A DNA stretch of 8,974 bases, taken from positions 1 to 8,974 of the forward strand of contig JAFGON010000011.1 in assembly GCA_016926475.1 (NCBI GenBank). Reading direction: 5' to 3'. The stretch is from a candidate division WOR-3 bacterium. Its GTDB lineage: Bacteria; SDB-A. Each line of letters starts with the position of its first letter. Positions within the stretch are counted from its first letter, which is position 1. The notes under the pieces are model-generated. The model was not told the DNA's origin. It searched no databases and saw nothing but the letters and a program-made list of their open reading frames with translations. Shown here piece by piece: positions 3,406 through 8,974 of the stretch. The translations under genes were made by a program, and so were the position numbers.

Positions 3406-5304
3406 TTAAGCGAGCGGTAGAGAAATCGTGAATTCCGTGCCTTTGTGAATATCATTATCTATAGAAAATTTTCCCCTGTGAAGTTCGATCAGTTTTTTCG
3501 CAATGAGAAGAGACAACCAAATTTCCTTGTCTAAATCCAATCCAATCCTGGTAGATGCCTGTATTTTCTCGTCAAAAGAAGGAATATACTCCAAAAACAT
3601 TCCGGGTCCGTTGTATTTTATTTTTATAAAAGATTCCTTGACGTTCTTTGAAAGCTTTAGTTCAAGTAAACTGTCCCTTTTCGCGAATTTAATCATCGAA
3701 ACGAGAATACTATCCAGTATCTCTTCGAAAGCTATTTTGTCCAAATACACAGCAAGAGAGCTTTCACATGCACAGAGTTCTAAATCGATATTTTTATCTT
3801 TACAAGCTTCCTTCAGAGAAGGCATCAAAGATCCGATCAGGGTGTTTAAATCCTCTTTTTTTAGTTTCAGACCAAATGAAGGATTTTCGAGTTCGAAAAT
3901 CCTCGCAATTTTTTCTATAAGCAATCGTGAATAGTTCACTCGTTCAAACACGGATTTTAAAGATTGTGAGATCTCGGAATTTTCTACATTTCCTTTTAAA
4001 GCTAAAAAATTAAGGTTTGTCTGTACGAAATCGAGACTGTTCCTGATGTCTTGAGAAATTAAATCAAAAAGATTGTCTTTAGACTGCACAGCGGAAGAGA
4101 GCTCCTCTGCGATTTTTTTCAATTCAATTCTGGCATAGTCAAGTTTTCTCTTGGTCTTTTCAAGCTCGGTGTTTCTCTCACTCACAATTTTATTTTCCCT
4201 TTCGATCCTGTCTATTTCATAATTGAGTTCGATTTCTCTCATTCTCGATTTTTTTTCATTCTCGTTGATATTCTCTTGGATTTGATAATATTCTACTATC
4301 AGATCATAAGCTCTGCTCAGATCTCCGAGTTTCCTGGAGATTTCAGCCATATTTTTTACTATTTCTTTTCTATGATAAGCCATCTCTATTCCAGTCGAAT
4401 AAAAGTAAGCTTTTTCGAAATATTCTCGGGCATTCAGCATATCTCCCTTTCCTGAGTAAACAGAACCGATGGCGCTGTTCACCATTGCGAGATCTTTTTT
4501 GTCGCCGATTTTAACCCTCTCTTTGAGCGATTTGTTTAAAAAGCCGAGAGCTTCTTCGAAGTTTCCGAGGTTTTTATGGGCTTCTCCAAGGTTCAAATAC
4601 GCCGAGGAAAGACCCCATGGGTCATCTATCTTTCTCTTCAGTTCAATGCTCTTTTCGAAGTATTCCAAAGAGTCCCTGTAACTCTGGCTTTCACAAAGAG
4701 ACATGGCAATATTCATGTAAAGGTTCGAGAGAATTTTTTCATCACCCGTGCTTTTTATTGTTTTAAGGGATTTTTCGAAATATTGATTGGCTTTATCAAT
4801 CTCCCCGTTTCGCAAATACAAGATACCTATATTGTTGCATATTCCAGATACGCTTTTATTGTCGCCAGCGAATTCGCTTGAAGAAAGAGCTTTGAAAAGG
4901 CATTCAAGGGCGGTGTCGTATTTTAACGTTTCAATATATATTATTGACAAATTGTTCAAAGTCGCGGCGATTTTTTCAGGGGCTTCCATTGCCTCTCTGA
5001 GAGAAAGCGCGTTTAAATAATTCTCGGTGGCTTTATCGTAGTTCTTGATTTTAAAATAAACTGTTCCAATCATATGGTAAGCACTCGCCATGCCGTCGTC
5101 GTTTCTGCTTTCGATGGCAAGGTTCAGAGCATTGTCCAAAGTTTTAAGGCTTAAGTGGAAATCTCCCTTTTTGCTGTAATCTTGGGCGAGATCGAAAAGA
5201 ACATCCAGTTTATCCCTAGGGTTATCTGTTTGAGAAATATCTTTTTTGCTATTTGGAAAGTTTTCACCGGTTTTAATAGTGGTATTAATCTTGTCTTTTT
5301 TCAC
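3406..5304 (-). CDS. TPR protein with degenerate histidine-kinase-like C-terminus (putative pseudokinase)
   Basis: A 632-residue cytoplasmic protein with no signal peptide or membrane segment. Residues about 32-340 form eight TPRs in an exact 40-residue register, with the conserved small residue at 40, 80, 120, and so on to 320. Residues about 343-410 are a charged coiled coil. Residues about 408-470 resemble a HisKA dimerisation helix and 515-632 a HATPase_c fold ending GTEFTISLP (622-630). Catalytic residues are missing: the H-box reads ISQDIRNS, so the phospho-acceptor His is Gln418; the N-box reads ILDSILVSMIKF, with Ser532 and Ser536 at the Asn positions; the G1 box reads YNGPGM (564-569), with Tyr for Asp. 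It probably works as a scaffold or sensor rather than an active kinase. The start is GTG at 5304, with GGAAGG (5315-5310) five bases upstream. It is last in a minus-strand operon, 46 bp after the dCMP deaminase. No response regulator is adjacent. Confidence 0.85.
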   Translation of the reverse strand: MKKDKINTTIKTGENFPNSKKDISQTDNPRDKLDVLFDLAQDYSKKGDFHLSLKTLDNALNLAIESRNDDGMASAYHMIGTVYFKIKNYDKATENYLNALSLREAMEAPEKIAATLNNLSIIYIETLKYDTALECLFKALSSSEFAGDNKSVSGICNNIGILYLRNGEIDKANQYFEKSLKTIKSTGDEKILSNLYMNIAMSLCESQSYRDSLEYFEKSIELKRKIDDPWGLSSAYLNLGEAHKNLGNFEEALGFLNKSLKERVKIGDKKDLAMVNSAIGSVYSGKGDMLNAREYFEKAYFYSTGIEMAYHRKEIVKNMAEISRKLGDLSRAYDLIVEYYQIQENINENEKKSRMREIELNYEIDRIERENKIVSERNTELEKTKRKLDYARIELKKIAEELSSAVQSKDNLFDLISQDIRNSLDFVQTNLNFLALKGNVENSEISQSLKSVFERVNYSRLLIEKIARIFELENPSFGLKLKKEDLNTLIGSLMPSLKEACKDKNIDLELCACESSLAVYLDKIAFEEILDSILVSMIKFAKRDSLLELKLSKNVKESFIKIKYNGPGMFLEYIPSFDEKIQASTRIGLDLDKEIWLSLLIAKKLIELHRGKFSIDNDIHKGTEFTISLPLA

Positions 5305-5350: not shown

Positions 5351-5848
5351 TCAGATCAAATCAAAGTCAATGATTATATTTTTCCTTTTCACCTCGTATT
5401 GCCTGTAAGCAACTTTGGCGCTGTCGAACATTCTCTTTGCGGCTTTTGTCTGGTCCGATTCGGCGTATTTATCCGAGAGGTATACGACTTCTTTAATTCC
5501 GGATTGAATGATGACTTTGGCGCATTCGTTGCAAGGGAAAAGCCCAACGTAAATTCTGCAATCATACAGGTCAACGCTTATTTTATTCAATACTGCGTTT
5601 AGTTCTGCATGACAGACATAAGCGTATTTAGATTCAAGAAAGCTCCCGTCTCGATTCCACGGAAAATCCTCGTCGGAGCAACCAGTTGGGAAACCGTTGT
5701 AACCTACACCTACGATTTTATTTTTTGAATTCACTATGCAGGCGCCAACCTGGGTGGAAGGATCTTTGCTTCTTTTTGCTGAAAGTATGGCAACTCCCAT
5801 GAAGTACTCATCCCATGTTATGTAATCACTTCTTTTTGATGACGGCAT
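5351..5848 (-). CDS. dCMP deaminase, eukaryote-like zinc-dependent type
   Basis: Cytosolic deoxycytidylate deaminase converting dCMP to dUMP, the substrate for thymidylate synthase, and so balancing dCTP and dTTP. The 165 residues carry the CDA-family zinc site H80-A-E82 (CHAELNAV) and P105-C106-x-x-C109 (FPCNEC); Glu82 is the proton shuttle. The [11 protein letters not shown] segment (49-59) matches the nucleotide-binding region of allosteric dCMP deaminases. From memory of human DCTD, long stretches are near identical: [34 protein letters not shown] and IIQSGIKEV. The start at ATG 5848 has AAAGGA six bases upstream. Its first 23 bp overlap the end of the upstream STAND-TPR gene, so translation is probably coupled. 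The downstream TPR pseudokinase follows after 46 bp. The simplest reading is a dTTP-supply enzyme; the odd neighbours allow a defence or signalling link. Confidence 0.93.
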
Positions 5849-8800
5849 CTTTTGTCCTTTCCAAAACTTTTTTCATTTCATTTGTTTTCTTAGACAAATC
5901 TTTAGTGCTTCTCTCCCTGTTTAAAGTCTTTAAGAATTTGTAAGTTTCTTCTGCAAACAAAAAGAGAATTCTATCGGGTTTTTCGTGGAGAAACCCTCTT
6001 TTTTTCCTAGAGCCGGTCAAGTAAAGGCATTGGCTGATAAAGTCTTCATCAACCGAAAGGATCAACAATTCCGGTTTTTTTCTGATTCTATTCATGGATT
6101 TCGTGATTTCGTAAAGCATGTGGGCTTTGATTTTTTTGTCAGGGGGGTAATTCTTAAAACCTGTCAGTTTCTTTATATTTTCGATTAACTCTCCCGGACT
6201 CGATTTTGAGAGGTTTTTCAAACGAAGAAGCATTGTTTCCGCTTCAATTTCAGTTTCTTGATCATGAGAAACTCTGATTACTTCTTTAAGTCTTTTTTCA
6301 GCCGATTTGTACTTTTTTGAGGAAATCTCGGCGTTCGCGAGATATACATTTATTTCCTTGGAAAATTTGTCGTTTTTCAAACCCAGAGCGATTTTTTGAG
6401 CGCTTTTCAGATACTTCCTGGCTGAACGAAGGTCTTTCAGTTTTCCGTGGACGATGCCCAGGTTTATCATGGCGTACATCAAATTCCTGTCAACTCCGGT
6501 TTTTTTAGCCTCCAAAAGCTGTTTTTTTAAATACTTCAAGGCTTTTTTGTCTTTACCAAGTTCCAAATAAGATGTCCCAATATTTCCGAGACAAGAAAAG
6601 ACACCAGTTTGATCTCCAATAGTCCGAGAAATCTCCAAACTCTTTTGATAATTGTCTATCGTCTTTTGCAAATCTCCAATTTTGTAGTATAACTGGCCTA
6701 AACTGCTCAATATAAATGCTTTACCTTTTTCATCCTTGAGCGAATTTGACATTTTGAGGGCTGACACAAGGTGTTTTTTTGCCATTTTGACATCTCCGCC
6801 CTGCATTTTCAAAATACCAATGTTGGTTGTGACCTGCTGAATTTCAGCTCTGTCTCCCAATTCTTTGACAACAGAGAGTTTTTGATCGAAAAGCCTCTCC
6901 GCTTCCGTTAGATTACCCATATCTTTATTCAAAACACCGAGGTTGCCGAAAGTTTTAGACAATTCTACTCTGTCTCCAAGTTCTTTCATTACTTTCAAAT
7001 TTTCTTGCAGGGAGTCTTTAGCCTGTTCAAGTTCGCCTTTCATGGCGTGCACAAGCCCGATATTTCCTATCGCTCGGGCGTACAATCTTTTGTCCTGTAT
7101 TTTTTGAGCAATTTCCAGTTGCTTTCGAAATGCCTGCATCGCTTTATCCATGAAACCCTGTCTCCAAAAAACGACACCCTGATCTAGCATTACCTGCGAA
7201 AGCCCCTTCTCATCTTTAACCTTTTCGTATAATGATTTCTGAAGGTCATAGTAATCCAGGGCTTTGGCATAATCACCCTGGCTCGCGAACAAAAATCCAA
7301 AATCACCAAAGACATCTGCGAGTTCTTTGTCAAGATGATTTGAGGTGAAATGGAGTTCGGCTTCTTTCAGGATTTTCTGAGCTTCTTCGTATTCGCCTTT
7401 GCTCAGAAGATGCCTGCCCAAATGCCTCTTTGACACGTAATACAAGTGCATGTCTTTATTTTTCTCGGCGTATTTTATAGCAAAACGATAATACTTATCA
7501 GCTTTCTGCCAATCACCTAAAAACCTCTCTATTTCAGCAGCCTTTATCAGGATTCGCTCTAATTGGGTCTCTTCTTTTAGGACACTTAACCTTCCGTCAA
7601 TGCTCATTATTGCTGTATCTTCGAGTTCAGGTCCAACAAACGACTCTTCTCCCCGGGGAAGCAAAGCGTATATCAATTTTTCGTAATAAGACGAAGCGTC
7701 TGAATAACGATATTTCAAACGGAGTTTCTCAGCTGATTTATAGAGATAAAACACGCTTTTTGAACTGTTTTCCGCTCTATGATAATGGTAGGACAACTCT
7801 TCGAATTTCTCTTCTATTCTATCCCCGTAAATTTTTTCAATTACCTCCCCTGTCTTTTGATGAAGATCGACCAAATCTTTCTTCAACTGCATTCTATAAA
7901 CGCATTCACGAATCATAGAATGCAAAAAAGTGTAGTAGAAATCGGATCTCGGCGCCCATATTGACTCCTTTTCACCTTCGAGCAAAAATGTAAAAATATC
8001 CGCTTGAGAAGACACCCATGAAAGAATCTGCGTGTCAAAATCTTTCCCCAAAACCGAGGCGATTTTGACCAGATTTTTAAGTTTGTACTTCAGGAGGTCT
8101 ATTCTTGAAATTATCAGGGAGTTTATGTCAGATGGAAATTCGAATTCTTCGACAGTCAAATTGTCAGCAGTATCGAGTTTGCCCTTGTTTTTAAGAAAGA
8201 GTATTATTTGTTCCATGAAAAGAGGGTTGCCTTCTGTGATTTCGATTATTTTTTCAACAATACCGCGCGGGACAAAATTTCGGTTTTCTGCGAGTTCTTC
8301 GATCCTCCTTTTAACGTAAAAACGGGAATCATCCTTTTCAAACTCCAAAAGAGTGATCTTGTTGAGTTTGTCTGTCGTAATTTCATCTTGAAGCGCTCTT
8401 GTGGGTCTGTAAGAGAGCACAATTAAAAACGGGTAGTTTTCGATGTTTTGGACCATAAAGTTTATCAACTTCACCGAATCGCTGTCCATCCAGTTCGTGT
8501 CTTCGATTTCAATTACAAGCTTTGACAAGGTCGAAAGGGCGAGAAAGAAATTTTTCAAAGCGCTCAAAGTATTGTCATATACTGCTTTGGCATCATACAT
8601 AGAATAGACAGCCGTGCTGTTTTCAAGCCCGATGAGGGCGCTCAAAAATATTTTCCCGAAAGACAGATTCGAACGTAATTTTTCGTTTTCCAATTTTGAA
8701 AGGAGGTCGTTGAATTTTTTTTCTACCTCTTCGCTTTTTAGGTTTTCAGTCAAAGGGCTTTCGGTTTTAAAATACAATTTAAGATATTCCGTGAAAGGTT

Positions 8801-8974
8801 TAAAACTATAGGAAATTAAATCATCGCACCTCATGCCCACCCAGTTCAAACCTAATTTATCAGAAAATATTTCTCTGGCGTTGTTTAAAAACCTGGTTTT
8901 CCCAACCCCGGTCGACCCCTCGACAAGAAGCACCCCGGCAAATTTCTTCTGCTCGAGCGGTTTTAGAATTCTTT
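5826..8974 (-). CDS. STAND-type AAA ATPase with C-terminal TPR array (5' end outside window)
   Basis: The frame is open to the window edge: 13 more codons ([13 protein letters not shown]) precede the GTG at 8933, so that codon is internal and the protein is at least 1048 residues. Numbering from that GTG, the P-loop is GSTGVGKT (6-13), Walker B is [12 protein letters not shown] (139-150), SYRP (174-177) fits the sensor Arg, and EGNPLFMEQ (234-242) and [10 protein letters not shown] (335-344) are the winged-helix hallmarks of AAA_16/MalT-like STAND ATPases. Eleven TPRs (about 458-900) follow in an exact 40-residue register. The last 130 residues are Lys-rich and match nothing I know. In related proteins the module follows a Ser/Thr kinase, cyclase or DNA-binding domain, and the missing N-terminus may hold one. 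Members use ATP-driven oligomerisation on ligand sensing by the TPRs. It is upstream of, and overlaps, the dCMP deaminase gene. Confidence 0.9.

Follow-up and report, generated by a model that had tools for sequence, protein, structure and literature searches.

The window, comprising the complete 8974 bases of contig C11 from a 2.15 Mb genome assembled in 106 contigs, encodes a 632 aa protein in which a TPR array is followed by a histidine-kinase module that has kept its fold and lost its phospho-acceptor histidine. As this state is shared by three orthologues and accompanied by an intact frame, the protein is a pseudo-histidine kinase, and, on the evidence of its sequence, it is very probably non-catalytic as a kinase. 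The layout of the gene and its signalling neighbours is provided in Table 1. A scan for promoters and terminators returned no usable signal.

Table 1. Features of the window that relate to the pseudokinase and its neighbours
Feature	Position	Strand	Remarks
TPR – pseudo-histidine kinase ORF, 632 aa	3406..5304	-	GTG start, GGAAGG upstream; 632 codons with 0 internal stops
TPR array, residues 25–350	4255..5232	-	Pfam TPR repeats; best-kept part of the protein, 60–62 % window versus orthologues
Long signalling helix/coiled coil, residues 351–408	4081..4254	-	In the model, continuous with DHp helix 1 (helix 329–436)
DHp-like helical hairpin, residues 409–478	3871..4080	-	Response-regulator-docking half is 420–449
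CA (HATPase_c, Bergerat) domain, residues 479–632	3409..3870	-	Pfam and structure model
Codon 418, CAA, Gln at the phospho-His position	4051..4053	-	AAA (Lys) in both orthologues
Codon 532, AGT, Ser at the N-box Asn 1 position	3709..3711	-	Asn in both orthologues
Codon 536, TCG, Ser at the N-box Asn 2 position	3697..3699	-	Asn in both orthologues
Codon 564, TAC, Tyr at the G1 Asp position	3613..3615	-	Asp in both orthologues
Deoxycytidylate (dCMP) deaminase-type gene between the two signalling genes	5351..5848	-	Named from reading the sequence; position kept in three species
AAA_16 (STAND) ATPase and TPR part of soluble-adenylyl-cyclase-like protein	5826..8972	-	Pfam; start cut by contig end

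Catalytic positions and fold of the kinase module

Pfam recognizes a HATPase_c domain at residues 522–631 (33.4 bits; cut-off, 26.4), and HisKA is absent from the 25 families that it lists for the protein; NCBIfam FimS gives a partial profile match. When compared with solved structures using phmmer, the last 235 residues align end to end with HK853 of T. maritima, such that Gln418 lies under the phospho-acceptor histidine, Ser532 and Ser536 lie under both N-box asparagines, and Tyr564 lies under the G1 aspartate. A purpose-built profile assigns the same four residues to the same columns. These alignments, joined for residue 418 by a check of its codon (CAA at 4053–4051), bear out the four substitutions that an earlier note had read from the window. 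The G2 box, which did not feature in that list, is also degraded, with GxGLG gone and EIWLSLLIA in its place. From the set of features that mark a histidine kinase, the window protein thus retains the Bergerat fold and lacks the phospho-acceptor histidine, the N-box asparagine pair, the G1 aspartate and the GxGLG of G2.

Phosphotransfer by the canonical mechanism requires the histidine. The only histidines in the kinase module of the window protein are 609 and 620, near the C terminus, meaning that no nearby histidine can substitute for position 418, and a shifted H-box or alternative phospho-site is rejected. When 39 distinct kinase-domain rows, drawn from the window genome, from related genomes and from bacteria further afield, were compared with HK853, histidine was found in the phospho-acceptor column of 34. 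The remaining five consist of the three orthologues, a partial domain that does not cover the column, and an unrelated PAS protein bearing arginine (L059).

Retention of the fold, as the same note had proposed, is supported both by the HATPase_c match above its cut-off and by an AlphaFold2 model of the monomer, generated from ten sequences (mean pLDDT 83.6). The model contains a TPR superhelix, a helix spanning residues 329–436, the second DHp helix and a complete CA sandwich, with the long helix joining the last TPR, the coiled coil and DHp helix 1 without a break. Residues 399–632 superpose on YycG with ADP (4zki; Z 22.5, rmsd 2.2, 227 residues), a match to HK853 is also found, and many histidine kinases are present amongst the Foldseek matches; phytochrome B appears amongst the weak sequence matches of the module. 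Structure comparison of the TPR part returns the superhelix of LGN (Z 33.7 over 317 residues) and, amongst bacterial proteins, Rap/NprR (Z 22–27), although structural matches for TPRs are common and indicate no function. The model itself is monomeric, and from the DHp family we infer dimerization through the long helix and the DHp bundle.

Orthologues, order of losses and selection

Orthologues in two other species of the genus display 51 and 47 % identity to the window protein. All three are 632 codons in length, with zero gaps in 632 aligned columns and no stop. The phospho-acceptor position is held by Gln in the window and by Lys in both orthologues, and the H+3 position is basic throughout (Arg, Lys and Lys, respectively). 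Both orthologues lack the histidine yet possess the N-box asparagine pair and the G1 aspartate, which are missing in the window's species only. It follows that the histidine was lost first, genus-wide, and that the ATP site was destroyed afterwards, in the window lineage. The four independent losses of the earlier note are therefore correct in number, but are of two ages, with the histidine gone from three of three species and the Asn, Asn and Asp gone from one. The note had also asked whether its substitutions are conserved amongst orthologues: the absence of histidine is (Gln, Lys, Lys), whereas the Ser, Ser and Tyr are not, as both orthologues have Asn, Asn and Asp. Loss in a single strain is rejected for the histidine, and accepted for the other three residues, their changes being private to the window's species.

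Each orthologue also carries a lesion of its own: in L003, GxGLG has become AWLG, and L004, which retains GLG, has DKGIS at DxGxG. To judge by their Asn pair and Asp, the orthologues may bind ATP, which is a poor fit to a purely inert CA domain across the genus. One could suppose that ATP binding persists in these two orthologues, which would serve as an ATP-gated switch or a phosphatase, the fully dead form being confined to the window's species; the N-box pair and G1 aspartate kept by both, and the GLG of L004, are in keeping with this, but the G2 lesion of L003, the DKGIS of L004 and the need of canonical transfer for histidine make it distinctly unlikely. That the changes are artefacts of sequencing, or of the assembly of a metagenome bin, has next to no probability: whilst the window, at 8974 bases, is a short piece of an assembly in 106 contigs, the lesions are spread across all boxes, and both the open 632-codon frame and the absence of the histidine from two independent genomes disfavour such an error.

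In a tree of 39 rows (HK853 included, partial domain omitted), the three pseudokinases form one clade (100/99), sister (99/94) to the intact TPR-kinases of the same three species and a sister genus, from which we infer descent from a conventional TPR histidine kinase of the kind still seen in the sister clade. At 1.55 changes per column, the kinase branch of the window is longer than those of its orthologues (0.23 and 0.49) and that of the intact paralogue in the window genome (0.33); we are unsure of the position of the long window branch inside the pseudokinase clade. Within a phylum sample of four genomes, the sister genus harbours intact TPR-kinases only and no pseudokinase orthologue. A scan of one genome per species produced a single orthologue (L009, located on the contig that carries it in G002), the other matches being distantly related TPR or TPR-kinase proteins. 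Amongst the genomes of the genus that bear an orthologue, one is deposited as candidate division WOR-3 bacterium Zod_Metabat.185.

The intact TPR-kinase paralogue of the same three species has had equal divergence time, and so provides a control. Between the window and G001, identity of the pseudokinases is 62 % in the TPR part and 37 % in the kinase module (DHp 37 %, CA 38 %), whereas for the intact paralogues of the same species pair the corresponding values are 55 and 62 % (DHp 64 %, CA 61 %). The two proteins differ in kinase identity with p 3e-7, whilst their TPR difference is not significant. Identity of the CA domain to the orthologues is 26–38 %, and no other part of the protein is as poorly conserved as the kinase module, or evolves as fast on the window branch. 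Using a codon model with shared branch times, and a ratio fitted by custom script, the kinase module gives 0.08 on the window branch and a ratio of 1 is rejected (2dlnL 29.4), a value that is rough as synonymous sites are saturated.

This test, within the same limit of saturation, together with zero gaps in the 632 columns, rejects a neutral pseudogene. The three 632-codon orthologues, with no indel or stop, and the rejection of neutral drift uphold the earlier view of a selected pseudokinase rather than decay. A more moderate form of decay would have the protein act as a TPR adaptor only, its kinase module a weakly constrained relic that is heading for loss and does nothing specific. The retention of the TPRs alongside fast divergence of the module, which is greatest in the window's species with its loss of all ATP-site motifs, would accord with such a relic; with zero indels or stops across 224 codons despite CA identity of 26–38 %, a confident fold and, on the window branch, the rejection of neutrality, we nevertheless find it unlikely. 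From the aligned sequences, selection is visibly keeping the TPR array and the fold, and not particular residues of the pseudo-active site.

Conservation within the module is uneven. In the response-regulator-docking half of the DHp (420–449), none of 30 columns is invariant, whereas the intact paralogues have 11 of 29 (p 1e-4); for the N-box helix, the counts are 3 of 18 and 16 of 18, respectively. Even when G001 and G002 are considered alone, agreement in the docking columns is 33 %, against 72 % in the intact set (p 0.004). The top of the DHp and the signalling helix are 45–55 % invariant.

These values bear on a mode of action like that of DivL from Caulobacter, a pseudo-histidine kinase with Tyr550 for the histidine and a CA domain reported to be dispensable (PMC4211667). 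By analogy, the dead module would bind a phosphorylated response regulator, or heterodimerize with a real kinase (e.g. the intact TPR-kinase paralogue), and in this way steer a phosphorelay. There are precedents for dead histidine kinases working so, in DivL and in a pseudokinase variant of ChrS from Corynebacterium glutamicum, the latter having an inactive CA and a proposed heterodimer with a paralogous kinase (PMC4211667, PMC9491836). An intact sister-clade TPR-kinase with a similar long helix and DHp (L042) exists in the same genome, and a basic residue is kept at H+3. The window protein also resembles DivL in having a histidine-kinase fold with another residue at the histidine position, conserved across orthologues. 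DivL, however, has PAS sensors, keeps its N, G1, F and G2 boxes and conserves its docking patch, whereas the window protein has a TPR array, ATP boxes that are ruined in the window's species (N, G1 and G2 being lost) and an unconserved docking half; the family also displays Gln or Lys in place of the Tyr (or Ala) of DivL relatives. Because DivL keeps the docking patch and the other boxes and the pseudokinase family does not, this route is the less likely one, and with no regulator or kinase gene next to the pseudokinase we deem it improbable. Regulation of a real kinase, as the earlier note envisaged, accordingly finds no direct support.

The neighbouring cyclase and a proposed mechanism

The STAND ATPase that the note placed in the same operon is sound as a matter of neighbourhood, but the full protein is soluble-adenylyl-cyclase-like, and only its C-terminal two thirds lie in the window. 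Its tandem cyclase part ends contig C93 (39661–40902), where it displays 59 % identity to a relative. An assembly break splits the gene between window positions 8972–8974 and the right end of C93 (40903), and contigs C11 and C93 should be adjacent. In two relatives, the full-length upstream protein has 1464–1478 aa, with two class III cyclase domains, AAA_16 and TPR; the corresponding Pfam families are Guanylate_cyc, AAA_16 and TPR. Soluble adenylyl cyclases have a split active site, formed by a metal Asp pair together with Lys, Thr, Asn and Arg, and alignment reveals the Asp pair in the first cyclase domain, and the other four in the second, in three of three species. Two cyclase domains with split active-site residues, AAA_16 and TPR are features shared with soluble adenylyl cyclases (ADCY10 type) and TOMM kinase-cyclases, and TIGR03903 (TOMM kinase-cyclase) covers part of the protein, far under the family cut-off. 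With these domains and key residues, the neighbour is soluble-adenylyl-cyclase-like, and a predicted cAMP-making enzyme. Within the same operon, cyclase residues are kept while kinase residues erode.

The order cyclase, deaminase-type gene, TPR-pseudokinase and convergent rfbC-type gene is found in three of three species. The intact TPR-kinase paralogue is similarly arranged end to end with a different gene of this cyclase type in the three species and the sister genus. With approximately 16 cyclase genes amongst approximately 1900, the chance of both TPR-kinases falling within two genes of one is about 0.001, which is a rough count with an estimated gene number. No kinase lies beside the other cyclase loci of the window genome (0 of 14 in available sequence, several touching a contig end).

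Our best reading, which as a whole we hold at about even confidence, is of a soluble, non-catalytic TPR adaptor dimer that would act by binding and not by phosphorylation, perhaps on the neighbouring cyclase. Of its parts, TPR-based binding is likely to be the working one, whilst the neighbouring cyclase as partner, to which gene order points, is plausible but falls somewhat short of an even chance. The long helix and DHp bundle would hold the dimer together, the CA domains would be inert appendages at its ends, and the paired TPR superhelices would bind a peptide or protein. The dimer would signal its bound or free state to the neighbouring cyclase, TPR contact being the simplest route, and cAMP synthesis would be tuned in turn; after loss of the histidine, the catalytic module would have been held only for its fold. 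A bolder version, tentative and on the doubtful side, is that the histidine-kinase fold has been recruited as a dedicated non-catalytic regulatory subunit, such that a ligand-sensing TPR-pseudokinase dimer controls cAMP synthesis directly, with no phosphotransfer, the intact TPR-kinase/cyclase pair being the still-catalytic counterpart. Several points count against the cyclase as partner. Both proteins carry TPR arrays, which are binders of many things; the deaminase-type gene separates pseudokinase from cyclase, and the order could be that of a historical operon; and two neighbour pairs are few, with conserved synteny rendering the species non-independent.

A number of further observations concern these loci. 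The window genome (G000) contains approximately 14–16 separate cyclase-STAND-TPR genes (L098, L107–L119) in its 2.15 Mb, which is unusually many, and only two of these have a TPR-kinase as a neighbour. Counted from stop to stop, the tail-to-tail overlap between the intact TPR-kinase gene and its cyclase gene is 57 bases in G001 (L008:8837–8893) and 17 in G002 (L097:4351–4367). Divergent from this pair is a gene for a protein with cyclic-nucleotide-binding and GGDEF domains, whole in G001 (L008:3817–4995) and cut in G002 (L097:3–467), which suggests a cAMP to c-di-GMP link. Elsewhere in the window, positions 96–2268 encode, in a row, Fur-family-like regulator, rubrerythrin-like and flavodiiron-like proteins (named from their sequences only), in what looks like the oxygen-stress cluster of an anaerobe.

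Relation to known pseudo-histidine kinases

Pseudo-histidine kinases are already known, in the form of DivL, plant receptors and the ChrS variant. The plant examples, i.e. the histidine-kinase-related domain of phytochromes and the degenerate ethylene receptors, are sensors with a degenerate kinase-like output; they differ from the window protein in being eukaryotic, with other sensors and outputs. The ChrS variant is a laboratory-evolved frameshift and not a conserved natural gene, and is without TPRs. The closest likeness is to the intact TPR sensor histidine kinases of the sister clade, which have the same domain order and also sit beside a cyclase-STAND-TPR gene, but which keep the histidine, N-box, G1 and G2, and conserve both the kinase module and the TPR part. 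No paper describing a TPR pseudo-histidine kinase beside such cyclase genes was found in the literature covered, coverage being incomplete. Within it, and as far as shown, a TPR pseudo-histidine kinase that is conserved in a genus next to a soluble-adenylyl-cyclase-like gene, and whose catalytic residues can be followed in their loss step by step, is new.

Taken across the genus, these proteins constitute a natural series of kinase death, from an intact paralogue, through orthologues without the phospho-acceptor in which the main ATP contacts are kept, to a species that has lost the ATP site as well, every member of the series having retained the sensor half. The order of events thereby becomes testable, with output lost first and the nucleotide site later. 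The conserved neighbourhood, moreover, ties two-component folds to soluble-adenylyl-cyclase-like enzymes, and suggests a direct route between two signalling worlds.

The window genome also encodes a PAS-HATPase_c protein on a different contig (L100:152–1279, G000:C33) with arginine for the histidine (LVRKINPPLL) and intact N, G1 and G2 boxes. It adjoins a sigma-54-type regulator, has no orthologue in three relatives, and is perhaps a second, putative pseudo-histidine kinase.
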